Shown here piece after piece: positions 30,889 through 51,392 of a stretch of DNA of 64,000 nucleotides. Position 1 is the stretch's first letter, and each line of letters begins with the position of its first letter. Position numbers and translations under genes: made by a program. The stretch spans positions 3,658,001 to 3,722,000 of the forward strand of contig NZ_CP007213.1 of the NCBI RefSeq assembly GCF_001411805.1. The letters are read 5' to 3'. A model generated the notes under the pieces. That model did no database searches, was not told where the DNA came from, and saw only the letters and a program-made list of their open reading frames with translations. This stretch comes from Burkholderia plantarii (GTDB lineage Bacteria > Pseudomonadota > Gammaproteobacteria > Burkholderiales > Burkholderiaceae).

Positions 30889-33800
30889 TCAGGCCGACGT
30901 CGCGCCGCCGCCGCGATCGACGTCGGCCGCCTCCGCCACCCCGCGCGCGCGGCCCAACCCGGCCACCAGCCGATAGGCGAGCGGCGCGAACGCAAGCCCG
31001 AACAGCGTGGCCGCCAGCACGCCGCCGAACGCGCCGGTGCCGATCGAGCGCCGGCTCTCGGCGCCGGCGCCGGTCGCGAGCACGAGCGGCACCACGCCGA
31101 GCAGGAACGCCATCGAGGTCATCACGATCGGCCGGAACCGCAGCGCGGCCGCGTCGAGCACCGCCTCGCGCAGCGCGGTGCCGCGCCGGTGCGCGTCGCG
31201 CGCGAACTGCACGATCAGGATCGCGTTCTTCGCCGCCAGCCCGATCACGGTGATCAGCCCGACCTTGAAATAGACGTCGTTCGGCAGGTCGCGCGCGAGC
31301 GCCGCGGCCAGCGCGCCGGCCGCGCCGAGCGGCAGGATGGTCAGCACCGCGAACGGCACGATCCAGCTCTCGTAGAGCGCGGCCAGCACCATGAACACGG
31401 CCAGCACCGACAGGCCGATCAGGAGCGGCGTCTGGCGCGCGGCCTCGCGCTGCTCGCGCGCCGCGTCCACCCAGTCGAAATCGATGCCGGCCGGCAGCGC
31501 CGCGGCAAGCCGCTCCATCTGCGCCATCGCCGCGCCCGAACTGACGCCCGGCGCGCTGCGGCCGCTCACGTCGAGCGACGGATAGCCGTTGAAGCGCGAC
31601 AGCGCCACCGGCCCCACGCTCCAGCGCCGCGTGGCGATCGCCGAGAGCGGCACCATCTGGCCGCCGTGGTTCGGCACCATCAGCGCCATCAGCGCGTCGT
31701 CGGACATGCGCGCGCCGGCGTCGGCCTCGACGATCACGCGCCGCATCCGGCCGTTGGCCGGAAAGTCGTTGACGTAGTTCGAGCCGAAGGTGCCGCCGAG
31801 CAGGCTCGACAGCCGCTCGAACGGCACCCCGAGCGCGTAGGCCTTGGCGCGGTCGATCTCGAGCTCCACGCGCGGGCCGTCGGGCTGGTCCTCGGTGCGG
31901 ATCGCGGCGAGCCGCGAGTCGGCGCGCGCCGCCGCCACCAGCTGCGCGCGCGCCGCCTTCAGCGCGTCGAGCCCCACCCCGCCGCGGTCCTCGAGGCGCA
32001 GCGTGAAGCCGTCGCCGTGGCCGAGGCCCGGCACCGGCGGCGGCAGCGACACGTCGACGTCGGCGTCGACGATCTTCGCGAACGCGCCGTTGAGCCGGTC
32101 GCGCAGCGCCAGCGCGCCGGTGCCGCGGCGCGCCCAGTCCTTCAGCTCGACGAACGCCATCGCCACGTTCTGGCCGCTGCTCGCGAAGCTCCAGCCGATC
32201 ACGCTCGTCACGTTGGCCACCGCCGGCTCGCGCGCGAGGATCGACTCGACGCGCTCGACCACGGCCAGCGTGCGCGCCTGGGTGGCGCCGGCCGGCAGCT
32301 GCAGCATCACCTGCAGCTGCCCGGTGTCCTCCGCGGGCAGGAAGCCGCCCGGAATCATCCAGGCCAGCAGCGCGCAGAGCGCGACCAGCGCCGCGTAGAC
32401 GAGCAGCACCGGCCGCGGCCGGTCGATCGTGAACGCCACCAGCCGGCGGTAGCGCGCGCCGAGCCGGTCGAAGCCGCGCGAGAACGCGTCGGCCGCGCTC
32501 GTGGCGAGCGCGGGTACGCGCCGCCGCGCGGCCGGGCCGCCCGCCGCGACCGGCTGGAGCAGGCTCGCGCACAGCGCCGGCGTGAGCGACAGCGCGACGA
32601 ACGACGACACCGCCATCGACGCGATCATCGCGATCGAGAACTGCCGGTAGATGCCGCCCACCCCGCCGGGGAAGAACGCCATCGGCACGAACACGGCGGT
32701 CAGCACCGCCGTCACGCCCACGATCGCGCCGCCGATGCGCCGCATCGCGCGCCGCGTGGCCTCGCGCGGCGGCAGCCCCTCGTCCTCCATGATGCGGTGG
32801 ACGCTCTCGACCACCACGATCGCGTCGTCCACCAGGATGCCGATCGCGAGCACCAGCCCGAACATCGTGAATACGTTGATCGACAGCCCGAATGCCCACA
32901 TCGCCACGAACGCGCCCATCAGCGTGACTGGAATCACCACGGCCGGCACCAGCGTGTAGCGCAGCCCGCGCAGGAACACCCACATCACGAGGAACACGAG
33001 CACCACGGCTTCGACGAGCGTCAGCACCACCTCGTCGATCGCGAGCTTGACGAAATGCGCGCTGTCGAACGGCACGCGGATCTCGGCGCCGGGCGGCAGG
33101 CGCTTCTGCAACGCGGCGATCCGCGCGTGGATCGCGTTCGAGGTGTCGAGCGCGTTGCCGCGCGGACCGAGCTGGATACCGATCGCGGCGGCCGGCTTGC
33201 CGTTCAGGCGCGACCAGTACGAGTAGTCGTCGCGGCCGATCTCGATGCGCGCGACGTCGGCCAGGCGCACCGCCGAGCCGTCGGGCTGCGCCTTCAGCAC
33301 GATCCGGCCGAACTCGGCCGGCGTGGCGAGCTGCCCCTTCACGATCACCGAGGCGGTCAGCTGCTGGCCGGGCTCGAACGGCGTGTCGCCGATCGCGCCG
33401 GCCGTGACGGTGGCGTTCTGCGCGCTCACCGCCGCGATCACGTCGTCGGCGCCGAGCCCAAATTCGCGCAGCTTCATCGGATCGAGCCAGATCCGCAGCG
33501 CGACGTCGGCGTCCCACAGCGTGGCGGCGCCCACGCCCGGCACGCGCTTGATCTCGCGCAGCAGGTTGCGGGTCAGAAAATCGCCGAGCGTGGTGGAATC
33601 CTGGCCGCCTTCGGTGGACGCCAGCGTGACGAGCATCAGGAACGTGTTGGCCGACTTGAAGACGTCGATGCCCTGCTGCACCACCTGCTGCGGCAGGCGC
33701 GCCTCCACCTGCTTGAGGCGGTTCTGCACCTCCACCACGGCGATGTCGGGGTCGGTGCCGGGCTCGAAGGTCACGTCGATCTCGAGGTTGCCGTGGCTGT

Positions 33801-34047
33801 CGCTGGTGGTTTCGTAGAACTGCAGGCGGTCGATGCCGTCGAGGCTCTCCTCGATGATGCTGGCCACGTCCTCGTCGACGGTCTCGGGCGCGGCGCCCGG
33901 GTAGGTCGCCGACACCACCACGCGCGGCGGCGCGAGGCGCGGATACTGCGCGACCGGCAGCTGCGGGATCGCGAGCAGGCCGGCCACCACGATCGCCAGC
34001 GCGACGATCCAGGCGAACACCGGGCGGTCGATGAAAAACGACGGCAT
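30889..34047 (-). CDS. RND-family multidrug efflux permease (HAE1 type), without adjacent adaptor
   Basis: 1052 residues, the usual length. MPSFFIDRPVFAWIVALAIVVAG is the classic start; the proton-relay aspartates are D407 and D408 (GILVDDAIVVVE), and the matching lysine is in GLAAKNAILIVQFA. Two large periplasmic loops are present. HAE1 pumps expel drugs, dyes and lipophilic products. The membrane-fusion and outer-membrane partners that normally sit beside the pump are missing here; the gene instead starts 3 bases after a GNAT gene at the end of the peptide-uptake operon. Confidence 0.95.
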   Translation of the reverse strand: MPSFFIDRPVFAWIVALAIVVAGLLAIPQLPVAQYPRLAPPRVVVSATYPGAAPETVDEDVASIIEESLDGIDRLQFYETTSDSHGNLEIDVTFEPGTDPDIAVVEVQNRLKQVEARLPQQVVQQGIDVFKSANTFLMLVTLASTEGGQDSTTLGDFLTRNLLREIKRVPGVGAATLWDADVALRIWLDPMKLREFGLGADDVIAAVSAQNATVTAGAIGDTPFEPGQQLTASVIVKGQLATPAEFGRIVLKAQPDGSAVRLADVARIEIGRDDYSYWSRLNGKPAAAIGIQLGPRGNALDTSNAIHARIAALQKRLPPGAEIRVPFDSAHFVKLAIDEVVLTLVEAVVLVFLVMWVFLRGLRYTLVPAVVIPVTLMGAFVAMWAFGLSINVFTMFGLVLAIGILVDDAIVVVESVHRIMEDEGLPPREATRRAMRRIGGAIVGVTAVLTAVFVPMAFFPGGVGGIYRQFSIAMIASMAVSSFVALSLTPALCASLLQPVAAGGPAARRRVPALATSAADAFSRGFDRLGARYRRLVAFTIDRPRPVLLVYAALVALCALLAWMIPGGFLPAEDTGQLQVMLQLPAGATQARTLAVVERVESILAREPAVANVTSVIGWSFASSGQNVAMAFVELKDWARRGTGALALRDRLNGAFAKIVDADVDVSLPPPVPGLGHGDGFTLRLEDRGGVGLDALKAARAQLVAAARADSRLAAIRTEDQPDGPRVELEIDRAKAYALGVPFERLSSLLGGTFGSNYVNDFPANGRMRRVIVEADAGARMSDDALMALMVPNHGGQMVPLSAIATRRWSVGPVALSRFNGYPSLDVSGRSAPGVSSGAAMAQMERLAAALPAGIDFDWVDAAREQREAARQTPLLIGLSVLAVFMVLAALYESWIVPFAVLTILPLGAAGALAAALARDLPNDVYFKVGLITVIGLAAKNAILIVQFARDAHRRGTALREAVLDAAALRFRPIVMTSMAFLLGVVPLVLATGAGAESRRSIGTGAFGGVLAATLFGLAFAPLAYRLVAGLGRARGVAEAADVDRGGGATSA

Positions 34048-34050
34048 CGA

Positions 34051-34602
34051 TCAGCTCCGTTGCGTGACCGGCACGAGCGGCGGCGCGCCGGTCACGCGCG
34101 CCATCGACAGCACGTCGGCCAGCTCGCCGTCGCGAACCGCGAACGCGCGCTGGCGCGCCTCGACCACGAAGCCGAAGCGCGCGTAGAGGTCGATTGCGCG
34201 ATGGTTGTCGTCGAACACGGTCAGCTCGATGCGTCGCAGGCCCAGCGCGCCATCGGCGGCGGCCAGCATCTCGCGCATCAGGCGCGCGCCGATCCCGCGT
34301 CCGGCATGCGCGTCGTGGACGGCGATGCCGAAGCTGGCCGCGTGGGCGCGCGGCGCCGGCTGCACGAACAGCGCGACGTGGCCGACCACCTCGCCGCCCG
34401 CCACGGCACAGAGCGCGAAGCCGCCGGTGGCGCCGCGTTCGAGCGGCTCGTGCCAGGCAGCGATCGTCTCGGGCGCGCGAAACGGCATCGCCAGCGTGTT
34501 GCGCAACGCGTGCGGCTGCTGGTGGATCGCGGAGATGGCCGCCGCGTCGGCGCCTTCGTAGGGGCGCACGATCACGGCCGCCGCGAGCGCGCGCTCGCTC
34601 AT
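34051..34602 (-). CDS. GNAT-family N-acetyltransferase (second of two)
   Basis: 183 residues with the acetyl-CoA loop HAGRGIGARLMREML and the C-terminal motif RAIDLYARFGFVVEARQRAF, typical of the L-amino-acid/RimI-like branch. It is cytoplasmic. The ATG shares ATGA with the stop of the preceding GNAT gene, and the RND gene begins 3 bases after its stop. GNAT enzymes of this type acetylate alpha-amino groups; in microcin C producers a related GNAT domain detoxifies the drug. The substrate here is unknown. Confidence 0.88.
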   Translation of the reverse strand: MSERALAAAVIVRPYEGADAAAISAIHQQPHALRNTLAMPFRAPETIAAWHEPLERGATGGFALCAVAGGEVVGHVALFVQPAPRAHAASFGIAVHDAHAGRGIGARLMREMLAAADGALGLRRIELTVFDDNHRAIDLYARFGFVVEARQRAFAVRDGELADVLSMARVTGAPPLVPVTQRS

Positions 34603-35285
34603 GCGCGACCCTCCCGCAGCGGATCGCGCGGATCGCGTGGATGGTCCGTGCCGCCATTCGAAGCGTTCACGTCGTTCGAGACCGGCGAAGCGTCCGGCGC
34701 GCGCGCCGCCGGATCGGCGGGTGCCGCCTCCGGCATCGGCGCGCGCAGCCGCGCGAGCATCCGCAGATCGACCAGCGCGCCATCGCGCAGCAGGCCGCCG
34801 CGCCGGAACCCCTCGGTCTCGAAGCCGAAGCCGGCGTAAAGCGCCAGCGCGGCCGTGTCGTCGGCGTGCAGGTCGAGTTCGAGCCGGCGCAGCCCGAGCC
34901 AGCGGTCGGCGAAGCGCAGCATCTCGCGCAGCAGCGCTGTGCCGACGCCGCGACGCCGCCAGCCGTCGTGGACGGCCAGTTCGAGCGTCGCCGCGTGCTG
35001 GCGGCGCAGCCGCAGCGGCGCGAGTTCGCCGAAGCCGGCCAGCGTGCCGTCGGCCCAGGCGCCGAAGCCGTGACGCTGCGCGAGCAGCTTGCCGAGCCAG
35101 TCACGCCGCCAGGCGAGCGAGCGATGCGGCGCCTCGATCCGCCACGCGGCCACGGCCGGCCGCGACAGCAGCGCATGCAGCGCCTCGGCGTCGTCGCCGC
35201 GCAGCGCGCGGATCACCACCGGCGCGTGCGCCTCGCGGCCGGCCGTGGGCGGGGCCGATGCCGGGGCGGCCGCGCGCTCGCTCAC
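34599..35285 (-). CDS. GNAT-family N-acetyltransferase (first of two)
   Basis: 228 residues from the GTG at 35283-35285, which overlaps the tldE-like stop (GTGA). The acetyl-CoA motif is WRRRGVGTALLREMLRFAD and the C-terminal motif AALALYAGFGFETEGFRRG. It is a paralog of the next gene, most alike in these motifs. The last 35 residues (after LRAPMPEAAP) are a charged low-complexity tail. Overlaps on both sides mean it is co-translated with tldE and the second GNAT. Confidence 0.87.
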   Translation of the reverse strand: MSERAAAPASAPPTAGREAHAPVVIRALRGDDAEALHALLSRPAVAAWRIEAPHRSLAWRRDWLGKLLAQRHGFGAWADGTLAGFGELAPLRLRRQHAATLELAVHDGWRRRGVGTALLREMLRFADRWLGLRRLELDLHADDTAALALYAGFGFETEGFRRGGLLRDGALVDLRMLARLRAPMPEAAPADPAARAPDASPVSNDVNASNGGTDHPRDPRDPLREGRA

Positions 35286-36658
35286 AGCGTCAGCGCGAAG
35301 TTGCGCGCGAGCAGGCCCGGCACGCTCGCGCCGACCGTCTCGCGCTCGTCGTAGGTGCCCTCGCCGAGCAGCAGGCGCGGCGTGGCGCCGAGCCGCTCCA
35401 GCTCGCCGCCGAACAGCGAATAGAAGCTGTCGTCGAAGCGCATCGCCTCGACCGGCGCGACGATCCGGCCGTCCTCGACCCAGAACGTCGCGAAGCGCGT
35501 CATGCCGGTCATCCGGCAGTGGATGCGGTCGGAGAAGTTCAGGTACCAGAGATTGCCGACGTAGAGACCGGTGCCGAGCGCGTCGAGCACGTCGGCATCG
35601 GCGAGATCGCCGCCCGCGATCGCGAGCGACTCGGGCACCTCGCGCGCGGCGGCGCCGTTCGGCGCCAGGCCGTGCTCGCGCGCGGTGCGCGCGCTGACCA
35701 GTTGCGCGGTGCCGCGCCCTTCGACCACGAGCGGCACGCTCTCGCGCCGGTAGCCGTCGGCGCTGAACGCGGGCGCCACGCCGAGCGAGAGATCCTCGCG
35801 GATCGACACGCGCGGATCGAGCGCCGTTTCGCCGTCGTAGAGCCGCTGCAGCGCGCCGCGCGCGCTGCGCTGGGCGCGCGCCGAGAAGCCCGACCAGCCG
35901 GCCAGGTCCACCATCTCGCGCACCGCGGCCGGCTCGAACCAGGTGCGGTAGCGGCCCGGCGCCAGCGCCTTCGGCGCGCGGCCGAGCACGGGCAGCCGCG
36001 CGGCGGCCTCGTCGAGCTTCGCGGCGAACGTGTCGTCCTGCCAGTCGTCGCCGGCGTAGACGGACTTGATGGCGCGCCCGCTCGGGTCGTACAGCGACCA
36101 GCTGAAGTTGAAGTTCTCGACCTCGTGCCAGCCGCGGCTGCCGGTGGACGACGCGAAGCCGCGCGCGACCGTGCCGCCGGCGTGGAAGCCGACGAAGTCG
36201 AGCCCGCGCGCGCATTCGGCAACGCGCGCGGCCAGCGCGTCGGCATCGGGCAGGCGCCCCTGGCGGCAGGTGGTGTGGACCCAGCTGCTGGTGTCGAACA
36301 GCAGGTGCGGATCGTCGGCGGCGTCGCGCACGGCCTCGCGCAATCCGGCCAGCGCCTCGGCCAGCTCGGCGTGGTCGGCCGCCCGGTCGCCGCTCAGCGT
36401 CTGCATCTGCGCGGCCTGCCGCGCGCCGGCCACGAGCCGCACCGTGAGCCGGCCCTGCAGCACGCGGCCGGTCTGGCGCACGCGCGCCGCGTTGAAGCGC
36501 ACGAAGTCGGACTGCTCGCCGGCGAACCAGAGCAGGATCGTCTCGCCCGGCTGGCGCAGCGCGTCGGCCTGGTCGGCGAGCTGCATGAAGTGGGCATGCC
36601 AGTCGATCGAGCCGGCACGGTTCGCGGCGCGCACCGCGCTCATCAGCGAATCGTCCAT
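35282..36658 (-). CDS. TldE/PmbA-type subunit of the TldD/TldE metalloprotease
   Basis: 458 residues. It lacks the HExxxH zinc motif and ends in HCRMTGMTRFATFWVEDGRI and EAMRFDDSFYSLFGGELERLG, the typical PmbA/TldE C-terminal part. In E. coli TldD/TldE is a heterodimer that cleaves unfolded and modified peptides, including the microcin B17 leader, and TldE is the non-catalytic partner. Start ATG at 36656-36658 overlaps the tldD stop by one base. Divergent enough from PmbA that a cluster-specific copy is likely. Confidence 0.88.
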   Translation of the reverse strand: MDDSLMSAVRAANRAGSIDWHAHFMQLADQADALRQPGETILLWFAGEQSDFVRFNAARVRQTGRVLQGRLTVRLVAGARQAAQMQTLSGDRAADHAELAEALAGLREAVRDAADDPHLLFDTSSWVHTTCRQGRLPDADALAARVAECARGLDFVGFHAGGTVARGFASSTGSRGWHEVENFNFSWSLYDPSGRAIKSVYAGDDWQDDTFAAKLDEAAARLPVLGRAPKALAPGRYRTWFEPAAVREMVDLAGWSGFSARAQRSARGALQRLYDGETALDPRVSIREDLSLGVAPAFSADGYRRESVPLVVEGRGTAQLVSARTAREHGLAPNGAAAREVPESLAIAGGDLADADVLDALGTGLYVGNLWYLNFSDRIHCRMTGMTRFATFWVEDGRIVAPVEAMRFDDSFYSLFGGELERLGATPRLLLGEGTYDERETVGASVPGLLARNFALTL

Positions 36659-38091
36659 CAGGCGCCTCCGAACACGTCGACGTCGGCGAACACGCAGGCC
36701 GGCGAGGCATGCCCGACGCGAATGATCTGCGCCGGCTCGCCCTTGCCGCAATAGGGCGTGCCGTGGACGCCGAAGGTGCTGGCGTCGCCCACGGCGCGCA
36801 GGCTGCGCCAGAAGCCGGCCGAGATGCCGCGATAGTTGGGCTTGCGCACCACCTGCGTGAGCCGGCCGTTCTCGATCAGCTGGCCGTATTCGCAGCCGAA
36901 CTGGAATTTGTTGCGGTGATCGTCGATCGACCAGGAGGTGTTGGTGCGCATCAGGATGCCGCGTTCGGTGCCGGCGATCAGCGCGTCGAGCGATGCGTCG
37001 CCGGGTTCGATGTTGAGGTTCGCCATGCGGTCGATCGGCGGGCGGTTCCAGCTCGAGGCGCGCGTGTTGGCAACGCCGGGCAGCCCGGCGCGCCGCTGCG
37101 ACAGCGCCCCGCCGAGCGGCCGTTCGAGGATGCCGTCGCGGATCAGGTAGGCGCGCTCGGCGCGCATGCCGTCGTCGTCATAGCCATACGACGCGGCCTC
37201 GCCGGCCACCTCGGGCGCGAACGTGACGTTGAGCAGCGGCGAGCCGTAGCGGTAGCTGCCGAACATGTCGGGCTTCACGAAGCTCGAGCCGGCGAAGTTG
37301 CGCTCGTCGCCGAGGATGCGGTCGAGTTCGAGCGGATGGCCGATCGACTCGTGGATCTGCAGCATCATCTGGTCGGGCATCAGCAGCAGGTCGCGCGGGC
37401 CGCTCGGGCAGTTCGGCGCGGCCAGCAGCTGCAGCGCCTCGGCCGCCACGCGCGCGCCGGCGCCGTCGAAGCCGGCGCGCGCCAGCAGCTCGGCGCCGCC
37501 CTGCGCGAGCAGACCGCCGCCGCCGAGCGAGCGCATCTCGGTGTCGCCGTCGGCATGCGCGACCACCTGCAGCTCGGGCGCGGCGAACGCGAAGCGCTGC
37601 ACGATGCGCACGCCGTCGCTCGTCAGGTAGAACTGGTCGGTGTCGATCAGCAGCAGGCTGGCGGTGCGCTCGACGATGCGCGCGTCGAGCGCGGCGGCGG
37701 CGCATTCGTGCGCGAGCCGGTCGACCCATTCGGCGCGCGTGGGCCGCGCGGCGTCGACGCCGGGCGAGGCGAAGCTGCCGTCCTGCGCGGGGCGCGCGGC
37801 GCCGCGATGGTCGATCAGCGACCAGGCCGCGCTGGCCCGCGCGCGCGCGATCGCGACGTCGAGCGCGGCCTGCAGGCCGGCCGGCGACAGGTCGGGCGTG
37901 GCCGCGTAGCCGGCGCCCGCGCCGCACCAGGCGGTCAGCATCGCGCCGCGGTCGCGGCTGCGCTTGAGCGGCTCGGCCACGTCGTTGCGCACCGCGTGTT
38001 CGTCGGTCCGTTCGTCGACCACGCGCAGCGACCAGAAATCGGCGTCGCCGCGCAGGTTGCGGGCCGCCTCGGCCCAGCGTGTTTCACTCAT
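36658..38091 (-). CDS. TldD-type zinc metalloprotease subunit
   Basis: 477 residues. The zinc site is H247-E248-x3-H252 in IHESIGHPLELDRI, with the third ligand cysteine in FGCEYGQLIENG. NRPPIDRMANLNIEPGDASLD and ILMRTNTSWSIDDHRNKFQFG are family-typical. It would supply the catalytic half of the heterodimer with the next gene. The ATG at 38089-38091 overlaps the yejF stop by 8 bases, tying the protease directly to the peptide importer. It acts in the cytoplasm on imported or stalled peptides. Confidence 0.92.
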   Translation of the reverse strand: MSETRWAEAARNLRGDADFWSLRVVDERTDEHAVRNDVAEPLKRSRDRGAMLTAWCGAGAGYAATPDLSPAGLQAALDVAIARARASAAWSLIDHRGAARPAQDGSFASPGVDAARPTRAEWVDRLAHECAAAALDARIVERTASLLLIDTDQFYLTSDGVRIVQRFAFAAPELQVVAHADGDTEMRSLGGGGLLAQGGAELLARAGFDGAGARVAAEALQLLAAPNCPSGPRDLLLMPDQMMLQIHESIGHPLELDRILGDERNFAGSSFVKPDMFGSYRYGSPLLNVTFAPEVAGEAASYGYDDDGMRAERAYLIRDGILERPLGGALSQRRAGLPGVANTRASSWNRPPIDRMANLNIEPGDASLDALIAGTERGILMRTNTSWSIDDHRNKFQFGCEYGQLIENGRLTQVVRKPNYRGISAGFWRSLRAVGDASTFGVHGTPYCGKGEPAQIIRVGHASPACVFADVDVFGGA

Positions 38092-40827: not shown

Positions 40828-41833
40828 AGCAGACGTCAGCGATGAGTTTGGTGATGAGGCCGATCAGCGTGAACAGGAACAGCGAGCCGAGCACGACCGG
40901 GTAATCGCGGCGGATCACGGAGTCGTAGGAGAGCTGGCCCATCCCGTCGAGCGAGAACAGCGTCTCGATCAGCAGGTTGCCGTTCAGGAACGCGCCCACG
41001 AACGCGGCGGGCAGGCCGGTGACGAGCGGGATCGCGGCGTTGCGCAGCACGTGCTTCCAGAGCACGTCGCGCTCGGGCGCGCCCTTGGCGCGCGCGGTCA
41101 GCACGTATTGCCGGCCGATCTCCTCCAGGAACGTGTTCTTGGTCAGGATCGTGACGATCGCGAAGTTGCCGACCACGGCCGCCGTGACCGGCAGCACGAT
41201 GTGCCAGAGGTAGTCGAGCACCTTGCCGGCCAGCGACAGGTCGGCGAAGTTGTCGGAGGTGATGCCGCGCATCGGGAACACCTGCCAGAACGTGCCGCCG
41301 CCGAACAGCATCAGCAGCAGCACGCCCAGCACGAAGCCGGGGATCGCGTAGCCGGTCAGCACCATCACGCTCGTCACGGTGTCGAAGCGCGAGCCGTTGC
41401 GCACCGCCTTGGCGATGCCGAGCGGCACCGCGATCAGGTAGGTGAGGAGCACCGTCCAGAGCCCGAGCGTGATCGACACCGGCAGCTTGGAGCGGATCAC
41501 CGACCACACGCTGCGGTGCGCGTAGTACGACTGGCCCAGGTCGAAGCGCACGTAGCTGCGGAGCATCATCAGGTAGCGCGTGAGCGGCGGCTTGTCGAAG
41601 CCGAACTGCTTCTTGATCTGCTCGATCTGCTGCGGGTCCACGCCCTGGCTGCCGTGATAGCCGCCGCCGCTACCGCCGCCCTCGCCGCCGCGCGCGCCGC
41701 CGTGGCGCAGCTGCGTGAGCACCTGCTCGACCGGCCCGCCCGGCACGAACTGCGTGACCACGAAGGTGATCGTCACCACGCCGAGGATGGTCGGGATCAT
41801 CAGCAGCAGGCGTCTGAGTATGTAGGCGAGCAT
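40781..41833 (-). CDS. yejB: Peptide ABC importer permease YejB
   Basis: 350 residues. MLAYILRRLLLMIPTILGVVTITFVVTQFVPGGPVEQ is the DppB/YejB opening; a Gly/His-rich insertion follows at about residues 45-65. The permease domain has the EAA loop YVLTARAKGAPERDVLWKHVLRNAAIPLVTG. With YejE it forms the inner-membrane channel. The start is 4 bases after the yejA stop. Confidence 0.95.
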   Translation of the reverse strand: MLAYILRRLLLMIPTILGVVTITFVVTQFVPGGPVEQVLTQLRHGGARGGEGGGSGGGYHGSQGVDPQQIEQIKKQFGFDKPPLTRYLMMLRSYVRFDLGQSYYAHRSVWSVIRSKLPVSITLGLWTVLLTYLIAVPLGIAKAVRNGSRFDTVTSVMVLTGYAIPGFVLGVLLLMLFGGGTFWQVFPMRGITSDNFADLSLAGKVLDYLWHIVLPVTAAVVGNFAIVTILTKNTFLEEIGRQYVLTARAKGAPERDVLWKHVLRNAAIPLVTGLPAAFVGAFLNGNLLIETLFSLDGMGQLSYDSVIRRDYPVVLGSLFLFTLIGLITKLIADVCYVLVDPRIQFSRLDH

Positions 41834-43763: not shown

Positions 43764-43917
43764 CGTCATCCTGCGGTGGACGGCGCGCCGCCGGGCGGCC
43801 GGCATGCCGTCATCAAGAGTTGAGGGAAACGGGCCGCCGCGCCTGCCCGCGCGGCAACGGGGGCGAGCGCGGCGGCCCGATGGCCGCCCGCACGGGGCGG
43901 GCGGACCTGCCACGAGA

Positions 43918-46683
43918 TCAGAACTTGTAGGTCGCGCCGATCTGGGCGAAGCGGCCGATGTAGGTGTAGATCGACTGATCGTAACCGGTCTGGCTCAGCG
44001 TGCCGTTCGCGAAGATCGGGTCATACGGCGGCGTGCGGTTGAAGATGTTGTCGATGCCGCCGTAGATCGTCCAGTTCTTGAAGCCCGTGTAGGTCACCAT
44101 CAGGTTGAACTGGCTGTACGAGCCGACCTTGTCCGGCGCCGGCGCCGCGAACAGGTTCTGCGCATACGGGCCGGTGAACTGCCAGGTGAGCGCGGCATCC
44201 CAGCGGTGGTAGCTCCAGTCCAGCGTGGTGTTGCCGCGCCAGCGCGGGAAGCTGCCGCCGAACGGCTGGGTCAGCGTGTAGTTGTTGCCCGCGCCGTCCA
44301 CCGGGGCCGCACCCGGCGAGCCGATCTTGAAGTTCTTCACGTAGGCCCAGTCACCCGACAGCGTGAACGTGCCCAGGCCCTTGACCGGCACCGCCTGGCG
44401 GAACGTCGACTCGAAGCCGTTGGTGTCGAGGTAGCCGAGGTTCTGGTACGGGATCACCTTGTAGATCAGCGCGCCCGTGGTCGGATCGGTCACCACGCTC
44501 GACGGGCTGCCCTGGCCGATCACGTTGTCCACGCGGATCTTGTACCAGTCGAGGCTGAAGTCGGTGTAGCGGCTCGGCGAGAGCTGGAAGCCGATGTTCA
44601 GGTTGCGGGTGCGCTCCGGCGCGATGTTCGGGTTGCCCACCGTGATCGACGTGTAGTTCAGGCCGGTGGCCTGATCGATCTGGCTGCCGATGGTGCGCGA
44701 GGAGCTATCCTCGACGAAGGTCGGCGCACGGAAGCCGCGGCTGTACGACGTGTACAGCGTGAGCTGCTGGGCCGGCTGGTAGCGCAACGCGAAGCGCGGC
44801 GAGAACGCGCCGCCGACGTCCGAGTAGTGGTCGTAGCGACCCGACTGGCTGAACGTCAGGTTCTGCAGGATCGGCACGTTGACCTGGTAGTAGACCGCCG
44901 CGACGTTGCGCTGGCCGTTCACCGACTGCAGGTTCGGCGAGATCACGGCGCCGTCCACGTAGCCCGAGCCCGGCGCGAGGAATTCGCTCTGGTGCGTGAA
45001 CTGCGCGCCCAGGCCGAGGCCGACGTCACCCGTGGGCAGATGGAACAGGTTCGGCGTGGACAGCGTCGCGTCCACCGTATCGAGCTTCGAGATGCCGAAC
45101 GTGCTGGCATCCTGGTACAGGCCGTTGAACGCGCCCGGCGTGGACGACGGATTCGCGAAGTTCAGCGCGCCGTTCTGGTAGATGTTGGTCAGCTGGTTGA
45201 CGTTGAGCTCGTTCGAGAACGAGTTGCTGACCGTGCTCTGCGAATGGCTCAGCGAGGTCGACCAGTCCCAGTCGCCGCCGTACCCGTGCGGCAACGTGAA
45301 CGAGCCCTTGACGCCGGTGGACGCGCGCCAGAACGTCGAGTTGGTCTTCTCGGCGATCGCGGCCGGGAACGTGTAGGTCAGCGCCGAGGGTGCGCCCGTG
45401 GTGTTGAACGGGTTGCTGGTCGGCACCACCGTGTTGAACGGCGTGAGCTGCTGCGTGGCCGGGTTCCAGACCAGCGCCGGCCCCTGCGGGTTGCCCACGG
45501 TGTGGGTGCCCTGGTTCGAGGTCGACGAGATGCTGCTGATCATGAAGTCGGCGAACGCGGTGGTCTTGTCGTCCACCTTGAAGTCGCCGTGCAGCTTCGC
45601 GTTCAGGCGCTCCGTCATCGGCAGGATCGACATGCTCTGCGCGGTGTTGATGCCGCAGACGGTGCCCGGCAGGCCCTGCGTGAGCGAGTTGGTGGCGGCC
45701 GGATGCGGCGCGCAGCCGTTCAGCGCCTGGGTCGAGCCGTCCGGCAGGTTCCAGTACGACGGCCCGAGCAGCGACAGGCCGCCCGGCAGGCCGGTGTAGT
45801 CCATGCTGCGGGTGGAGTCGCGGTCGGCCAGCGTGAAGCCGTTGGACTTGTAGAAGCTGGCCGCGGCGGTGATGTTGAAGCGGTCGGCGTTCAGGTCGCC
45901 GAAGCCGCCGAGCACGCCGAACTTGGTGGTGCCGTCGCCGTTGCCGGCGTTGATCGCGCTGCCGAGGCTGCCGTCGAGCTGCAGGCCGCGGAAGTCGTGC
46001 TTGGTGATGATGTTGACCACCCCGCCGATCGCGTCCGAGCCGTATTGCGACACGGCGCCGGTCTTGACCACCTCGATGCGGTCGATCGCGTTGAGCGGGA
46101 TCGTGTTCAGGTCGAAGAACGAGTCGTCGGCGTTCGAGAAGAACGCGAACGGCGCCACGCGCTGGCCGTCCACCAGCACCAGCGTGTACTTCTCGGGCAG
46201 GCCGCGCAGCGCGATGCCGGCCGCGCCGGCCGCGAAGTTGTTGCTCTGGCCTTCGCTCCAGCTGTTGGCCGAGTTGGCGGTGGTGTTGCGCAGGAAGTCG
46301 GACACGGTCACCGCGCCGCTGCTCGTGATGTCCTTCTGCGTGATCGTCTGGACCTGGTTGAAGCCGACCTTGTCCGAGCTGCGGATCAGCGACCCGGTCA
46401 CCTCGAAGCGCTTGATCTGCGCCACCTTCTTGCCGCCCGGCGTCGTCGCCGCGGCACCCGAGGCCGCGGCGGGCGCCTCGGCCGTGCTCGTCGTGCCCAC
46501 GCTCGACGGCGTGTCGGCCTGCGCCACCGTCACGGCCGGGCCGTTCGCCACCGCGTCGGCCACCGTCGCCGGACCGGCCGCCGGCTGGCTTTGCGCGAAC
46601 GCCGGCACGGCCAGCGTGGCCGCCAATGCGATTTCCGCCCAGACGATCTGCCTGACGGCCATCGCCAATACTCTCTGTTTCAT
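43918..46683 (-). CDS. TonB-dependent outer-membrane receptor
   Basis: 921 residues from the ATG at 46681-46683 with GAGAGGGG upstream. Signal peptide to about residue 30, then a variable stretch, the plug domain (TQKDITSSGAVTVSDFLRNT; GLPEKYTLVLVDGQRVAPF; IPLNAIDRIEVVKTGAVSQYGSDAIGGVVNIIT) and the barrel ending in YKF. The plug type resembles receptors for peptides and carbohydrates more than classical ferric siderophore receptors, but that is not certain. It lies directly upstream of yejABEF and downstream of its own TonB/ExbBD genes, so it likely imports the ligand then passed to YejA. Confidence 0.93.
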   Translation of the reverse strand: MKQRVLAMAVRQIVWAEIALAATLAVPAFAQSQPAAGPATVADAVANGPAVTVAQADTPSSVGTTSTAEAPAAASGAAATTPGGKKVAQIKRFEVTGSLIRSSDKVGFNQVQTITQKDITSSGAVTVSDFLRNTTANSANSWSEGQSNNFAAGAAGIALRGLPEKYTLVLVDGQRVAPFAFFSNADDSFFDLNTIPLNAIDRIEVVKTGAVSQYGSDAIGGVVNIITKHDFRGLQLDGSLGSAINAGNGDGTTKFGVLGGFGDLNADRFNITAAASFYKSNGFTLADRDSTRSMDYTGLPGGLSLLGPSYWNLPDGSTQALNGCAPHPAATNSLTQGLPGTVCGINTAQSMSILPMTERLNAKLHGDFKVDDKTTAFADFMISSISSTSNQGTHTVGNPQGPALVWNPATQQLTPFNTVVPTSNPFNTTGAPSALTYTFPAAIAEKTNSTFWRASTGVKGSFTLPHGYGGDWDWSTSLSHSQSTVSNSFSNELNVNQLTNIYQNGALNFANPSSTPGAFNGLYQDASTFGISKLDTVDATLSTPNLFHLPTGDVGLGLGAQFTHQSEFLAPGSGYVDGAVISPNLQSVNGQRNVAAVYYQVNVPILQNLTFSQSGRYDHYSDVGGAFSPRFALRYQPAQQLTLYTSYSRGFRAPTFVEDSSSRTIGSQIDQATGLNYTSITVGNPNIAPERTRNLNIGFQLSPSRYTDFSLDWYKIRVDNVIGQGSPSSVVTDPTTGALIYKVIPYQNLGYLDTNGFESTFRQAVPVKGLGTFTLSGDWAYVKNFKIGSPGAAPVDGAGNNYTLTQPFGGSFPRWRGNTTLDWSYHRWDAALTWQFTGPYAQNLFAAPAPDKVGSYSQFNLMVTYTGFKNWTIYGGIDNIFNRTPPYDPIFANGTLSQTGYDQSIYTYIGRFAQIGATYKF

Positions 46684-46991: not shown

Positions 46992-47567
46992 TCAAAACAA
47001 TCTCGGCGTGCCCACCCAGACCACCCACGCTTCCTCGTCCGCCGCGTTGCGCCACGCGTGCGTGAGCGCCGCCTCGTAGTGCGCCGTGTCGCCGGGCTGC
47101 AGCGTCAGCGTGCGGCCGTTCAGCGTCAGCGCGATCTCGCCGCGCACCACGTACAGGAACTGCTCGCCCGCGTCCGACGGCATCGCGGAGCCCGGCTCGC
47201 GGGCCGGCAGCTTCACCAGCACCGCGTCGAGCTGGCGGCTGCTGCCCGGGTTCGTCATGCGCGCGAACGAGTTCGCCGAATCCGCGAAGCTGAAGAACTG
47301 CAGCGTGTTCGCGCGCCTGACCGCCTTCGCCTCGCTCGGCGCCTCGACGAAGTACTGCATCGTCACGCCGAGCGCGCGGGCGATGCCGGCCAGCGAGGTC
47401 AGCGACGGCGTGGCCCGGCCGCGCTCGACCTGCGACAGGAACGGCTTCGAGATGCCCGCCGCCGCCGCGACTTCGTCGAGCGTGAGCTTCAGCCGCTGGC
47501 GCAGCGCCCGGATCCGCGCGCCGATCGCGGCCGCGGCCGACATCGTTTCATCGCTGAACGGGCCCAT
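46992..47567 (-). CDS. Xre-family regulator with C-terminal cupin domain
   Basis: 191 residues. HTH: IRALRQRLKLTLDEVAAAAGISKPFLSQVERGRATPSL. Cupin: FLYVVRGEIALTLNGRTLTLQPGDTAHYEAALTHAWRN, a small-molecule-binding beta-barrel. Such PuuR/SutR-like proteins sense amino acids, polyamines or similar ligands. It lies 25 bases after the TPR gene and 308 bases before the receptor, and is the only DNA-binding protein in the 23-kb cluster, so it is the probable regulator of the pathway. An alternative start is the ATG at 47543. Confidence 0.9.
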   Translation of the reverse strand: MGPFSDETMSAAAAIGARIRALRQRLKLTLDEVAAAAGISKPFLSQVERGRATPSLTSLAGIARALGVTMQYFVEAPSEAKAVRRANTLQFFSFADSANSFARMTNPGSSRQLDAVLVKLPAREPGSAMPSDAGEQFLYVVRGEIALTLNGRTLTLQPGDTAHYEAALTHAWRNAADEEAWVVWVGTPRLF

Positions 47568-47592: not shown

Positions 47593-48786
47593 TCATTTCG
47601 CCGCGACGAGGGTCCACAGCCGTGCGACGTCGGCCGTCCCGTCGTTCCCGTTGACGGCGCGCCAGGCCTGCACCGCGCGAGGCTTGTCGCCCGCCACGTA
47701 GTACGCCTCGCCGAGGCGCAGCTGCGCGAGGTCCGGATGCGCGAGGCCGCCCTTGGCGATCGCCTGGCGGATCTGCGCGAGACCGTCGGCGGCCTTGCCG
47801 GCGAACACCTGGTTGAGCCCCGCGTCGACCGGATCGACCGGGTTGGCCGGATCGGGCGGCGCCACCGCGCGCCTGGCGGCCAGCGCCTGCAGGCGCTTCT
47901 CGCGGTCGGCCTGCGCGTCGCGGCCAAGCACGCCGGCGGCGAAACCCTGATCCACCACCTGCTTGCCCTCGGCCGTCGAGCCGGCCACGATCGCGAGCTG
48001 GGTCATCTCCATGTAGTCGTCGGCGCTCGCCAGGCCGCCGCTGGCGCGCCGCAGCCGGTACAGGTCGAGATCGAGCGACGACAGATAGCCGGGCCGCGTG
48101 CGGATCGCGTCGAACAGCTGGGTCTGATAAGCCGGATTCGGATGGTGCACCACCAGCGATTCGAGCGCGGCGCGGTAGGTCGCGCCGTCACCGGCGTGCT
48201 GCGCGCAGGTGGCCAGCATCTGCAGCGACGCCTCGTCGGGCACGCGGCCCGCGCGCGTGTCGGCGTCGAGCGCGGGCTTGAGCGTCGCCACCACCGCCTT
48301 GCAGTCGTTCGACAGGTAGTACGACTGCAGCAGCAGCGTGCGCATGTCGGGATCGCTGCCGCCCGCCTTCTGGTAGCGCTGCGCGGTGCGGATCGCGAGC
48401 GGATAGTTCTTCTGCTGGAAATAGAGGCCGGCGAGCGTGGCGGCGGTGCGCTGCTCGTCGGCGGCGCTCGCGTGGCCCGAGGCCAGCACGGCCTCGTAGG
48501 CCTGCTCGGCGGTGCCCGAATCGCCAGCCGCGATCGCCGCGGCGCCGCGCATCTCGTCCACCGTCACCGCCTCGTAGGGCGTCTTGTTCGGCACCGCCTG
48601 CGCCAGCGCGATCTTGCCGAGCGCGTCGCGATACTTGTGGGCGCGATAGAGATCCTGCGCGGCCGCGAGCGGCTTCGCCACCTCGGGCCGCAGCGTGTCG
48701 GCGGCGTGCGCGAGCGGCGCGGCGCAGGCAAAAAGCATCCCCAGCGCGGCCGCGAGCGCGGCGCGCGTCATCCGTTGGTCGATCAT
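47593..48786 (-). CDS. Periplasmic TPR-repeat protein
   Basis: 397 residues with a signal peptide (AALAAALGMLFACAAPLAHA). Helical repeats: PLAAAQDLYRAHKYRDALGKI, AEQAYEAVLASG, LYFQQKNYPLAIRTAQRYQKAG and near the end GLAQIRQAIAKGGLAHPDLAQLRLGEAYYVAGDKPRAVQAW. TPR proteins of this type accompany TonB-ExbB-ExbD sets in many proteobacteria and may scaffold the complex in the periplasm. The gene begins 16 bases after the second exbD. Confidence 0.85.
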   Translation of the reverse strand: MIDQRMTRAALAAALGMLFACAAPLAHAADTLRPEVAKPLAAAQDLYRAHKYRDALGKIALAQAVPNKTPYEAVTVDEMRGAAAIAAGDSGTAEQAYEAVLASGHASAADEQRTAATLAGLYFQQKNYPLAIRTAQRYQKAGGSDPDMRTLLLQSYYLSNDCKAVVATLKPALDADTRAGRVPDEASLQMLATCAQHAGDGATYRAALESLVVHHPNPAYQTQLFDAIRTRPGYLSSLDLDLYRLRRASGGLASADDYMEMTQLAIVAGSTAEGKQVVDQGFAAGVLGRDAQADREKRLQALAARRAVAPPDPANPVDPVDAGLNQVFAGKAADGLAQIRQAIAKGGLAHPDLAQLRLGEAYYVAGDKPRAVQAWRAVNGNDGTADVARLWTLVAAK

Positions 48787-48802: not shown

Positions 48803-49231
48803 TTACTGCATGTACTGTTCGTTGCCGATCAGGCCGATCTTGGTGGCGCCCACGCGCTGCGCGGCGGCCAGCACGCCGGCCACGTCGCGGTACGGCACCA
48901 GCTTGTTCGGGCGCAGATGGATCTCGGGCTGCACCGGTTCGGCGGCGGCCTGCTGCAGCTTCGCCTCCAGCGCCGCGCGGTTCGGCACCGGCGCGCCGTT
49001 CCAGGTGGTGGTGCCGTCGAAGTCGATGTCGATCTGCACGATCTCCGGCGGCGTGGGCGGCGGCGGCGGATTGCCCACCGGCAGGTCCATCTTCACCGAG
49101 TGCATCTGGATCGGGATGGTGATGATCAGCATGATCAGCAGCACCAGCATCACGTCGATCAGCGGCGTGGTGTTGATGTCGACCATCACCTCCGGCTCGC
49201 CGCCGCTGCGCGAGGACACGTTCATACCCAT
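48803..49231 (-). CDS. exbD: ExbD-family energy-transduction protein (second)
   Basis: 142 residues. One membrane segment at the N-terminus carries the essential aspartate D26 in INTTPLIDVMLVLLIMLIITIP. A Pro-rich linker (VGNPPPPPTPPEI) leads to a periplasmic domain. It forms the proton-driven motor with ExbB. The presence of two different exbD genes suggests a heterotypic ExbD pair, as seen in Xanthomonas-like systems. Confidence 0.93.
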   Translation of the reverse strand: MGMNVSSRSGGEPEVMVDINTTPLIDVMLVLLIMLIITIPIQMHSVKMDLPVGNPPPPPTPPEIVQIDIDFDGTTTWNGAPVPNRAALEAKLQQAAAEPVQPEIHLRPNKLVPYRDVAGVLAAAQRVGATKIGLIGNEQYMQ

Positions 49232-49247: not shown

Positions 49248-49670
49248 TTAACCGCCGCGCGCCGGCGGCTCGGTGATGAAGGACACCTTGACGATGCCCG
49301 CCCGCTCGCAGTCGGTGATCAGGCGCCCGATGAACTCGTAGCGCGTGTCCTGGTCGCCGCGCACGTGGACGTCCGGCTGCGGCGTCATCTGCGAGACCGC
49401 CTTCAGCTTGGCGAGCAGCGTCGGCCCGTCCACCAGCTGCTCGCCCCAGAAGTACTGGCCCTCGCGGTTCACCGCGAGTTCGATGCTCTTGGGCGTGGTC
49501 TGCAGCGGTTGCACGGCTTCCTTCGGCAGTTGCAGCGGAATCGTGTGCGTGACGACCGGGATCGTGATCAGGAAGATGATCAGCAGCACCAGCATCACGT
49601 CGACGAGCGGCGTGGTGTTGATCGCGGAGATCACCTCGTCGTCGTCTTCCTGCCCGACACTCATGGCCAT
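49248..49670 (-). CDS. exbD: ExbD-family energy-transduction protein (first)
   Basis: 140 residues, with the essential aspartate D24 in INTTPLVDVMLVLLIIFLITIPVV and a periplasmic C-terminal domain ending FITEPPARGG. It differs clearly from the second ExbD in the periplasmic part. It lies 13 bases after exbB and 16 before the other exbD, so all are one transcript. Confidence 0.93.
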   Translation of the reverse strand: MAMSVGQEDDDEVISAINTTPLVDVMLVLLIIFLITIPVVTHTIPLQLPKEAVQPLQTTPKSIELAVNREGQYFWGEQLVDGPTLLAKLKAVSQMTPQPDVHVRGDQDTRYEFIGRLITDCERAGIVKVSFITEPPARGG

Positions 49671-49683
49671 GGCGTGCCTCCGC

Positions 49684-50595
49684 TCAGCGGCCGAGCGTGG
49701 CGGCCGGCGCGCCGGCCACGCGGGCGCGCTTGCCGCCCGCCAGCACCACGGTGTGCAGTTGCGCGCCGAAGTTGCGCACGCGCTCCATCACGGTCTTGTT
49801 GCGGCGAACCAGGAAGTTGTAGCCGAGCACCGCCGGCACCGCCACGGCCAGGCCGATGGCCGTCATGATCAGCGCCTCGCCCACCGGGCCGGCCACCTTG
49901 TCGATCGAGGCCTGGCCCGCGATGCCGATCGCGGTCAGCGCGTGATAGATGCCCCAGACGGTGCCGAACAGGCCGACGAACGGCGCCGTGGAGCCGACCG
50001 TGCCGAGGAACGCGAGGCCGTCCTGCAGGCGGTTCGAGACGTTGGTGATGCCGCGCTCGACCGACGCGTCGATCCAGGTGTTGCGGTCCACCGCCTCCAG
50101 CAGCGCCTCCTGGTGATGCTCGCCCGCCTCGATCGCGGTTTCGGTCAGGAAGCGGAACGGCGAGGCCTCGTCGAGCAGCTTGACGCCCTCGCTCAGCGAC
50201 GGCGCGGTCCACAGCTGCTGGTCGGCGTGCTTGGCCCGGCGGTTCGCGCGCATCTGCTCGAGGAACTTGGTGATCATGATGTACCAGCTGCCCATCGACA
50301 TGATCACCAGCAGCACCAGCACGAAGCGCGCGACGAAGTCGCCGCCCTTCCAGAGCGCGCCGAGCCCGTAGGGGTTGGCCACCGCCTCGGTGGCGGCCGG
50401 CATCGGCGGCGGCACCGCGTCGGTGGCGGCGGGCGCGGCCTGCACGGCGGCGGGCGCCGAGCCGGCGGCCGCGTCGCTCGACTGCGCGAACGCGCTTTGC
50501 GGCGCGAGCAACGCCACGGGGGCCACCGATACGGCCACGCCGGTGGCGGAAATCATCATGCTTGCCGCGAGCGCGGCGATCGAACGCTTGGCCAT
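49684..50595 (-). CDS. exbB: ExbB-family proton channel protein
   Basis: 303 residues from the ATG at 50593-50595 (AGGAG upstream; an upstream TTG is rejected). It has a signal-like N-terminal extension followed by a Pro/Ala stretch, then three membrane segments including FVARFVLVLLVIMSMGSWYIMI, LGTVGSTAPFVGLFGTVWGIYHALTAIG and GEALIMTAIGLAVAVPAVLGYN. The last two are the family's conserved pore helices. It powers TonB with the proton gradient. Confidence 0.95.
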   Translation of the reverse strand: MAKRSIAALAASMMISATGVAVSVAPVALLAPQSAFAQSSDAAAGSAPAAVQAAPAATDAVPPPMPAATEAVANPYGLGALWKGGDFVARFVLVLLVIMSMGSWYIMITKFLEQMRANRRAKHADQQLWTAPSLSEGVKLLDEASPFRFLTETAIEAGEHHQEALLEAVDRNTWIDASVERGITNVSNRLQDGLAFLGTVGSTAPFVGLFGTVWGIYHALTAIGIAGQASIDKVAGPVGEALIMTAIGLAVAVPAVLGYNFLVRRNKTVMERVRNFGAQLHTVVLAGGKRARVAGAPAATLGR

Positions 50596-50690
50596 ACCCA
50601 ACTCCTATTCTTTCGTTGTACTGACGAAGGCCTGTCATGCTTCGCCGCCTGGCGCCGGCACTGCCGGCGCCCGATCCAGATTGAGGGAAT

Positions 50691-51392
50691 TCAGTTCAGA
50701 TTGAAGGAGAACGGAACCTGTACGCGCACCGGTTGCCCCTGCGCCACGCACTTGAACTGCTTGACCGCATTGAACGCTGCACGGTCGAGATCCGAGTCGG
50801 CCGACTGCGCGACGCGCTCGTTGGTGATCTTGCCGTCCGCATCGACGGTGAATTCGATCAGCACGTCGCCCGTGATGTTGTTTTCCTGCGCTTCCTTCGG
50901 ATAGCGGATCGAGCCGCGGATCTGATCCGAATTCGGGCACACCACGCCGACTTCATGGCTCACCGGCTTCGGGGCCGGCGCGGGCGGCGCGACCACCGGC
51001 GGCGCCGTGACGGGCGCGGACACCACCGGCGCGGCCTGATGCACGATCGGCGTCTGCGGCGGCGCCTGCACCGGCACCTCGGGCGGCGGCACGAACGGCG
51101 GCGGCGGCGGCGCGAACTTCGGCGGCGGCAGCTTGACGGTGGGCATCGGCGGCGGCGGCGGCGGCTTGACCGGCTCGATGATGCGGGTTTCGATGGGGTG
51201 CTGGATCACCTGCACGACCTTGGTCGCGAGGCCGTTGAGCAGCGCGTAGATCAGCACCACGTGCAGCAGCAGCACGACGGCGATGCCGGCGTAGCGGCGC
51301 ACCGGCTGCTTGCGTGTTGCCTCGTACTGGCGGGGACGGCCGAGTTGCGCCAGACCGCTGTTCGACGTGGCGAGGCCCTCTTCAATCTTCAT
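50691..51392 (-). CDS. tonB: Energy transducer TonB
   Basis: 233 residues from the ATG at 51390-51392. One N-terminal membrane helix (YAGIAVVLLLHVVLIYALLNGL, with the conserved histidine), a long Pro-rich periplasmic spacer with PPPPPPMP and related repeats (about residues 73-145), and the C-terminal domain GSIRYPKEAQENNITGDVLIEFTVDADGKI to the end. It transmits energy from ExbB/ExbD to outer-membrane receptors, here most likely the one at 43918. It is the first gene of the minus-strand cluster. Confidence 0.95.
   Translation of the reverse strand: MKIEEGLATSNSGLAQLGRPRQYEATRKQPVRRYAGIAVVLLLHVVLIYALLNGLATKVVQVIQHPIETRIIEPVKPPPPPPMPTVKLPPPKFAPPPPPFVPPPEVPVQAPPQTPIVHQAAPVVSAPVTAPPVVAPPAPAPKPVSHEVGVVCPNSDQIRGSIRYPKEAQENNITGDVLIEFTVDADGKITNERVAQSADSDLDRAAFNAVKQFKCVAQGQPVRVQVPFSFNLN

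Follow-up and report, generated by a model that had tools for sequence, protein, structure and literature searches.

A minus-strand gene run in Burkholderia-group genomes suggests a modular, TonB-powered system for the uptake and processing of foreign peptides

Sixteen genes, all on the minus strand between positions 30889 and 51398 of the 64-kb stretch of DNA analyzed here (the window), form a single run in the order TonB-ExbB-ExbD-ExbD-TPR-XRE/cupin-TonB-dependent receptor (TBDR)-YejABEF-TldD-TldE-GNAT-GNAT-RND. We judge the evidence to lean, if modestly, toward the run encoding a modular, TonB-powered system that takes up and processes foreign peptides, probably modified or protease-resistant ones. 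The initial annotation had described a minus-strand row of fifteen genes, of which the shared strand holds and the count does not. The gene identities that it proposed were borne out, by Pfam and NCBIfam models for the scanned genes and by translations and annotated orthologues for the TPR, ExbB, ExbD and TonB genes:

50691..51398, minus strand: TonB energy transducer (translation; orthologue annotated as energy transducer TonB)
49684..50601, minus strand: ExbB proton channel (translation; orthologue annotated as MotA/TolQ/ExbB)
49248..49670, minus strand: ExbD, first copy (translation; Pfam ExbD match in the same genome at C2:3707266)
48803..49231, minus strand: ExbD, second copy (translation; Pfam ExbD match in the same genome at C2:3706830)
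47593..48786, minus strand: TPR-like protein with a signal-peptide-like start (translation; present in 57 of 80 loci)
46992..47567, minus strand: XRE-type helix-turn-helix regulator with a cupin domain (Pfam HTH_3 and Cupin_2)
43918..46683, minus strand: TonB-dependent outer-membrane receptor (Pfam Plug and TonB_dep_Rec_b-barrel)
41838..43769, minus strand: YejA-like solute-binding protein with a signal-peptide-like start (Pfam SBP_bac_5; YejA and MbnE among the best PDB matches)
40781..41833, minus strand: YejB-like permease (top NCBIfam hit to the model for microcin C permease YejB, with 427.7 bits and a cut-off of 445)
39718..40827, minus strand: YejE-like permease (top NCBIfam hit to a microcin C permease model, with 383.8 bits and a cut-off of 439)
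38084..39718, minus strand: YejF-like ATPase with two ABC domains (best NCBIfam model YejF, 623.6 against 834)
36658..38091, minus strand: TldD-type metallopeptidase retaining HExxxH and CGK (Pfam; alignment to solved TldD; motif counts)
35282..36658, minus strand: TldE-type partner without HExxxH (Pfam PmbA_TldD_3rd; motif counts)
34599..35285, minus strand: GNAT acetyltransferase 1, GTG start (Pfam Acetyltransf_1; start position)
34051..34602, minus strand: GNAT acetyltransferase 2 (Pfam Acetyltransf_1)
30889..34047, minus strand: AcrB-type RND permease (Pfam ACR_tran; NCBIfam RND_permease_1 over its cut-off)

Several junctions within the run are very short or overlapping: the start of the first GNAT gene (35285) overlaps the TldE stop, TldE and TldD have one base in common, and TldD and YejF overlap by 8. 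Wider gaps of about 300, 150 and 90 nucleotides lie ahead of the TBDR, YejA and ExbB genes, respectively. Annotated orthologues (TonB, ExbB, both ExbD copies, XRE regulator, TBDR, solute-binding protein, permeases, ATPase and TldD) follow the same order, with XRE-TBDR placed ahead of TonB in some relatives. Promoter and terminator scans returned background levels, and footprinting of 55 XRE/cupin-TBDR gaps mostly recovered the receptor gene start, which we set at an ATG conserved among relatives together with the region around it. Between the XRE/cupin and TBDR genes, a few Burkholderia loci also have a short element in common.

In the pathway that we favor, a dedicated TonB/ExbB/ExbD complex would power the outer-membrane receptor, YejA would capture the peptide in the periplasm, and YejB, YejE and YejF would carry it into the cytosol. 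There TldD/E would trim the peptide, the two GNATs would acetylate a product of that cleavage, and the RND pump, paired with an adaptor encoded elsewhere, would export toxic or useless products. The XRE/cupin protein probably senses a ligand, and the TPR-like protein is probably periplasmic. The benefit to the cell could be amino acids, protection, or both; this, like the nature of the ligand and the direction and order of the steps, is what we infer. The initial annotation had likewise proposed a path of import, cleavage and acetylation for a peptide, which survives as the best reading, although two of its accompanying suggestions (an MccE analogy and a siderophore role) are not supported.

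The arrangement is conserved above chance. Among 80 named Burkholderia-group loci, 22 keep the exact sixteen-gene order (L127 of Paraburkholderia xenovorans LB400 is one with all sixteen in order), 67 carry the TBDR and YejABEF on one strand, and 51 have a contiguous YejF-TldD-TldE. The order persists across Burkholderia, Paraburkholderia and others, with comparable sets elsewhere, and is thus not limited to close relatives, an outcome that the initial annotation had named as counting against it. TldDE is patchy, being absent from 29 of the 80 loci (six of these have no YejF or stop less than 4 kb beyond it), which indicates that the pair would be inessential to uptake. GNAT genes on the same strand occur solely with TldDE (37 of 51 loci with the pair against 0 of 23 without it, excluding L114, L134, L146, L171, L182 and L186, in which YejF is missing or the end lies within 4 kb). 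A Fisher test of this association treats the loci as unrelated, for which a count of changes on the Yej tree (10 in TldDE state and 7 in GNAT state) is a partial remedy. Given the confinement of the GNATs to TldDE loci and these repeated changes, their most likely substrates are the products of TldDE. One of the excluded loci, L114, has an RND gene.

The receptor has both plug and barrel domains and is accompanied by TonB, ExbB and ExbD genes, as expected of a TonB-energized receptor. It is the most divergent part of the run apart from the GNATs, with a median identity to the window of 57% against 89% for YejB and 74% for TldD, a divergence that would be expected if ligands differ between strains. 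Together with TonB dependence, the YejA protein raises the alternative of a peptidic metallophore system, in which the receptor would import a metal complex, TldD/E or acetylation would free the metal, and the RND pump would return the chelator: YejA matches the methanobactin-binding protein MbnE (3e-96) nearly as well as it does the YejA structures, and the receptor of a second operon in the same genome exceeds the siderophore-receptor cut-off (279.1 against 223.5). The window receptor, however, scores far below that cut-off (TIGR01783; 76.6 against 223.5 bits), and a search that allowed up to three mismatches found no canonical Fur box in the window or in L273, a weak test made with a consensus sequence; neither result gives positive support to the siderophore role suggested in the initial annotation. 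The regulators are instead of the XRE/cupin and Lrp/AsnC types, and the M3, S9 and M20 peptidases of sister assemblies suggest cleavage as an end in itself. In methanobactin import the receptor is MbnT; the window shares with that system an MbnE relative, but its scanned flanks contain no biosynthetic genes and it has YejBEF and TldDE. We regard metallophore uptake or recycling as unlikely.

The importer reproduces the YejABEF layout, with an SBP_bac_5 protein, two permeases and a two-domain ATPase in order, and its YejA matches solved YejA. YejB, YejE and YejF fall below the curated cut-offs of their models, marking them as close relatives and not E. coli-type equivalogs of the systems that import microcin C and phazolicin, from which the window copy also differs in adjoining its own receptor and TonB complex. 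A second YejABEF in the same genome (YejB 70% identical) has no receptor within its 18-kb stretch. Phazolicin, an azole RiPP, is imported by both YejABEF and BacA (PMC10128002, in part). Import solely for destruction has been proposed for the Sap and YejABEF systems. A role of this kind, in resistance to host antimicrobial peptides, would fit the greater sensitivity of Salmonella and Brucella YejABEF mutants to such peptides (PMC9629497, in part), and disulfide-rich peptides could be reduced by the thioredoxin that the second operon encodes. A TonB-driven receptor would nevertheless increase the dose, active uptake of a toxic peptide would be a risky road to resistance, a variable receptor suits bacterial ligands at least equally, and the cluster is present also in loci from soil isolates; we therefore consider this role rather improbable.

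In the peptidase pair, the domains exceed the Pfam cut-offs for PmbA/TldD, TldE through its C-terminal domain only. The window TldD carries HExxxH at residue 247 and CGK at residue 448, and across the 56 pairs passing a length filter, TldD retains HExxxH in 56 and CGK in 55, while TldE lacks HExxxH in 55. The pair thereby resembles the TldD/TldE of microcin B17 (M103), which has two subunits with HExxxH and CGK solely in TldD, but forms a divergent branch (TldD model: 62.6 bits against 513) with transporter genes adjoining; canonical TldD/TldE copies lie elsewhere in the same genome. Azole RiPPs are trimmed by TldD/E (PMC10885120, in part).

Among solved structures the GNATs are closest to PA1377; of the NCBIfam models, PRK10140 fits them best, with a score below its cut-off. 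Among their structure matches, no chain is named MccE or RimL and RimI is weakly present, so the analogy to MccE drawn in the initial annotation is not supported. Microcin C immunity (MccE, the MccC pump and MccF) is nonetheless alike in logic, combining Yej import, a peptidase, acetylation and export (PMC7680869, in part). The window differs in showing no MccE-type GNAT, in having TldDE for MccF and an RND pump for the MFS one, and in providing a dedicated TonB receptor where microcin C enters through a porin. The RND permease reaches 1312.1 bits against a cut-off of 1250, as expected of the AcrB type. When a single adaptor protein, that of a Pseudomonas plasmid, served as tblastn query, neither the window nor any of the 80 loci yielded an adaptor gene, so the window does not show a complete efflux pump.

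After the RND gene lies a gene for a class A penicillin-binding protein. We dropped this gene as a sign of cell-wall function, its presence as a neighbor being limited to the two closest relatives. The same limit weakens the idea of muropeptide import in the style of YejBEF-YepA, which takes up muropeptides in Agrobacterium tumefaciens (PMC9790009, in part); since the genome already has an AmpG-family permease over its cut-off (475.6 against 350), we hold this idea to be extremely improbable. Flanking genes also bear on whether the run belongs to a RiPP producer, serving re-uptake, maturation and self-immunity for its own peptide. In Burkholderia stagnalis, a few kilobases downstream, lie genes for an M16 peptidase and for three radical SAM proteins of the B12-binding type, along with a 55-residue ORF, a set that we considered as a candidate cognate RiPP locus. 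This set has no matches in L073, L074 and L122, the closest relatives that share the downstream layout, and no modification enzyme was found among the scanned flanking genes of the window, which leaves a producer role very doubtful.

Comparable combinations recur in other genomes. A P. aeruginosa plasmid carries the same parts in another order (TldD-TldE-ABC exporter-TonB-ExbB-ExbD-TBDR-YejABEF-adaptor-RND-GNAT); the Pseudomonas stretches span the adaptor and part of the RND position, with the GNAT position outside them. In a TldDE tree built without L107, L253, L260 and L261, the Pseudomonas plasmid and Burkholderiaceae form sister clades (support 1.0), compatible with an old shared linkage that may lie behind both clusters. 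G1072 has TBDR-ExbB-ExbD-TonB-SBP-M3 peptidase-OppBC-OppDF-S9 peptidase-MFS-TldD-TldE on one strand, and G263 has ExbB-ExbD-TonB-TBDR-SBP-OppBCDF-TldD-TldE-SBP-M20 peptidase; neither stretch, as read, contains GNAT or RND homologues. The additional M3, S9 and M20 peptidases point to peptide cleavage, and the full TBDR-to-TldE run at L243 strengthens the peptide-uptake reading. The second operon of the window's own genome (AsnC-TBDR-TonB-ExbB-ExbD-BacA-like-thioredoxin-TldE-TldD) uses a BacA/SbmA-like importer. With its siderophore-type receptor it resembles the FhuA-TonB and SbmA route of microcin J25, both relying on a receptor and a nonspecific peptide importer, but differs in having its parts in a single gene run with TldDE and thioredoxin.

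These assemblies also bear on whether the window simply places a TBDR-Yej uptake operon beside an unrelated TldDE-GNAT-RND operon. TldDE, GNAT and RND genes are each missing at many loci, and TldDE of the window's branch is mostly solitary outside Burkholderiaceae, where, of 20 class loci and 28 phylum/order loci, just one each has a YejB-like gene on the same strand. Such chance proximity is at odds, however, with the overlapping gene ends and with the repeated joining of these parts in other lineages, with other importers, and it appears highly unlikely; judged by these comparisons, the linkage exceeds inherited synteny.

Beyond the peptide system favored for the window, we tentatively raise a broader possibility, in our view less likely than not: that such clusters constitute a recurring, unrecognized class in which a TonB-powered receptor, an interchangeable importer (YejABEF, Opp or BacA/SbmA) and TldD/E with other peptidases capture and dismantle competitors' modified peptides, with GNAT and RND modules neutralizing protease-released products. 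If so, the variable receptor would tell which peptide a strain eats or disarms, and the clusters would allow unseen peptide ligands to be charted from genome sequence. Little is known of the fate of released modified peptides, or of their use as food or disarming by neighbors, and a dedicated gene set for crossing both membranes and for first processing would make that fate testable. The predicted TonB route to the cytosol in Burkholderia-group bacteria and some Pseudomonas would also matter for the design of peptide antibiotics that enter via such transporters. As a separate observation, two of three TldD loci have an ExbD locus no more than 12 kb away (P ~0.001, estimated post hoc).

The window cluster, delineated from translations and profile matches, comprises sixteen genes on the minus strand of a genome of 8.08 Mb in three contigs, placed by its relatives in the Burkholderia group:

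51398 down to 30889, minus strand: TonB, ExbB, ExbD, ExbD, a TPR-like protein, an XRE/cupin regulator, a TonB-dependent outer-membrane receptor (TBDR), YejA, YejB, YejE, YejF, TldD, TldE, two GNAT acetyltransferases and an AcrB-type RND permease (30889-34047)

The separate parts are of known kinds, and the joined receptor-Yej-TldDE system is a variant on them; searches of open-licence PubMed Central listed no paper describing such a cluster in its title, the opening of its abstract or the excerpts consulted. The metal motif is kept in the window TldD and absent from the window TldE. A penicillin-binding protein gene lies on one side of the cluster and a sensor kinase with a response regulator on the other; the family matches of these flanking genes are to general functions only, and among the relatives fetched they were seen beside only the two closest.

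Comparison with loci fetched by a YejA query (the best 80 of 116, from named records of Burkholderia, Paraburkholderia, Trinickia and Caballeronia, plus one MAG labelled Rudaea) revealed a complete YejABEF in 77 of 80, a TBDR and YejABEF on one strand in 67, contiguous YejF-TldD-TldE in 51, and all sixteen genes in exactly the window's order in 22. TldE has a scattered distribution. With the window's own genome counted each time, it occurs in 25 of 65 genomes at genus level, 41 of 299 at family level (6 of 25 genera) and 26 of 274 at class level. In Paraburkholderia sprentiae (NZ_CP017563.2), one receptor sits between two divergent peptide ABC importers, and ExbB-ExbD-TonB precede YejABEF.

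Gene content after YejF could be scored in 74 of the 80 loci.

Content after YejF (loci of 74)
TldDE, GNAT and RND: 36
Nothing: 13
RND alone: 10
TldDE and RND: 9
TldDE alone: 5
TldDE and GNAT: 1

GNATs occur in 37 of 51 loci with TldDE versus 0 of 23 without, and RND in 45 of 51 versus 10 of 23 (two scorings of RND differ by one, solely owing to the loci dropped). On the YejBEF tree, TldDE, GNAT and RND change state 10, 7 and 8 times, fewer than the minima of 15, 19 and 12 reached by label shuffling, indicating that all three are inherited, yet have been repeatedly gained or lost. On the simplest interpretation, the uptake core functions alone, TldDE add processing, and the GNATs depend on TldDE products.

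Under a strict count, in which a gene must share the strand of TldD within the fetched stretch, a YejB-like gene was found in 14 of 20 stretches from the family, 1 of 20 from the class and 1 of 28 from the phylum and order; for a receptor, the values were 13 of 20, 2 of 20 and 1 of 28 (the receptor of stretch L243 sits in a later-fetched stretch, L352). The rarity of a same-strand YejB-like gene outside the family indicates that most TldDE of the window branch act without a YejB-type transporter. One Burkholderia-group TldE-TldD pair (L075:4307-9103) lacks Yej genes; its same-strand neighbors are genes for a GNAT and for an MFS transporter. L245:5073-6938 has a same-strand TBDR gene ~2.4 kb past TldE and no YejB-like gene in the stretch.

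A comparable assembly is found on a Pseudomonas aeruginosa plasmid, adjoining a mercury-resistance region:

CP124675.1, all one strand: TldD, TldE, an ABC exporter-type protein, TonB, ExbB, ExbD, TBDR, YejA, YejB, YejE, YejF, RND adaptor, RND permease, GNAT

A TldE search matched two further P. aeruginosa plasmids. In CP124675.1 the adaptor stands beside the RND permease, whereas a search with one adaptor query found no adaptor gene in the window or the 80 loci. Plasmid YejA, B and E are 42, 65 and 60% identical to Klebsiella canonical YejABEF, above their values against the window (34, 52 and 49%); YejF is about equally near to both (59 and 58%). The plasmid TldDE fall outside the Burkholderiaceae TldDE clade, in a sister clade of ten (support 1.0) alongside nine TldDE without a YejB-like or receptor match in the fetched stretch. 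A relative of the plasmid receptor occurs in 56 of 298 genomes of the genus of genome G713; of 20 stretches fetched from that genus, 18 carry consecutive TBDR-YejABEF, 13 of these behind TonB-ExbB-ExbD, and none contains TldDE or an adaptor. Together with the tree placement, these TldDE-free stretches suggest that TldDE, RND and GNAT joined a Pseudomonas-type core separately on the plasmid.

The window's own genome carries a second receptor-TldDE operon:

L273, G000:C2:709500-729000, outside the window: Lrp/AsnC regulator, TBDR, TonB, ExbB, ExbD, an ABC protein with ABC_membrane_2 and SbmA_BacA domains, a thioredoxin-domain protein, TldE, TldD, then DUF2891

Its TldD is close to the canonical model (511.9 bits; cut-off 513) and lies on a different branch from that of the window (62.6 bits). 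L305, L306, L307, L308 and L309 all keep the AsnC-to-TldD order, as does L310 apart from a missing thioredoxin match; L279 is a short contig, and L311, taken as a more distant BacA-like match, has no part of the run. This BacA/SbmA-like gene order, kept in relatives, indicates that a non-homologous peptide importer is joined to receptor and TldDE. The mobilizable Burkholderia glumae plasmid NC_012723.1 (L304), with insertion sequences nearby, holds the receptor-TonB-ExbBD-BacA-like-thioredoxin run without a TldDE match. Of the three TldD-bearing loci of the own genome, two are no more than 12 kb away from one of its six ExbD loci (P ~0.001, estimated post hoc). A second YejABEF (G000:C1:2905000-2911000; YejB ~70% and YejA 53% identical to the window's) has no receptor gene homologue within its 18-kb stretch.

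Two further assemblies use Opp-type importers and include additional peptidases:

G1072 (same order as the window genome, different family), stretches L352 and L243, one strand: TBDR, ExbB, ExbD, TonB, SBP_bac_5, M3 peptidase, two permeases, two-domain Opp-type ATPase, S9 prolyl-oligopeptidase-type protein, MFS protein, TldD, TldE
G263 (same class), L105: ExbB, ExbD, TonB, TBDR (by barrel match), solute-binding protein, two permeases, two ATPases, TldD, TldE, second solute-binding protein, M20 peptidase

The G263 TldDE group with L099 (support 0.995), among loci without YejB-like matches. L107:4198-17548 holds a second TldD in addition to a distant TldE/TldD pair; upstream, a TBDR and an MFS protein share their strand, and an M61 peptidase gene lies in between.

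YejABEF and BacA/SbmA are known importers: as excerpts of the sources state, phazolicin uses both YejABEF and BacA (PMC10128002), microcin C enters through YejABEF, and microcin J25 takes a receptor and SbmA (PMC7680869). In the assemblies described here, such importers are co-located with their own TonB complex and TldD/E. TldD/E tolerate many sequences and trim an azole-peptide leader up to the point where the modified portion obstructs the channel, according to parts of PMC10885120. The best-supported mechanism is that peptides would be actively captured, imported and then cleaved, while acetylation and efflux would serve for disposal or protection; the benefit to the cell may be either nutritional or protective. 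TldDE and the GNATs could alternatively form an acetyl-removing and acetyl-adding pair, as a title cited in PMC10885120 names N-deacetylases within the TldD/TldE family. In Burkholderia stagnalis (NZ_CP156687.1), a few kb downstream of TldE, L188:24331-31120 holds an M16 peptidase, three B12-binding radical SAM proteins and, between them, a 55-residue ORF, a possible RiPP cluster.
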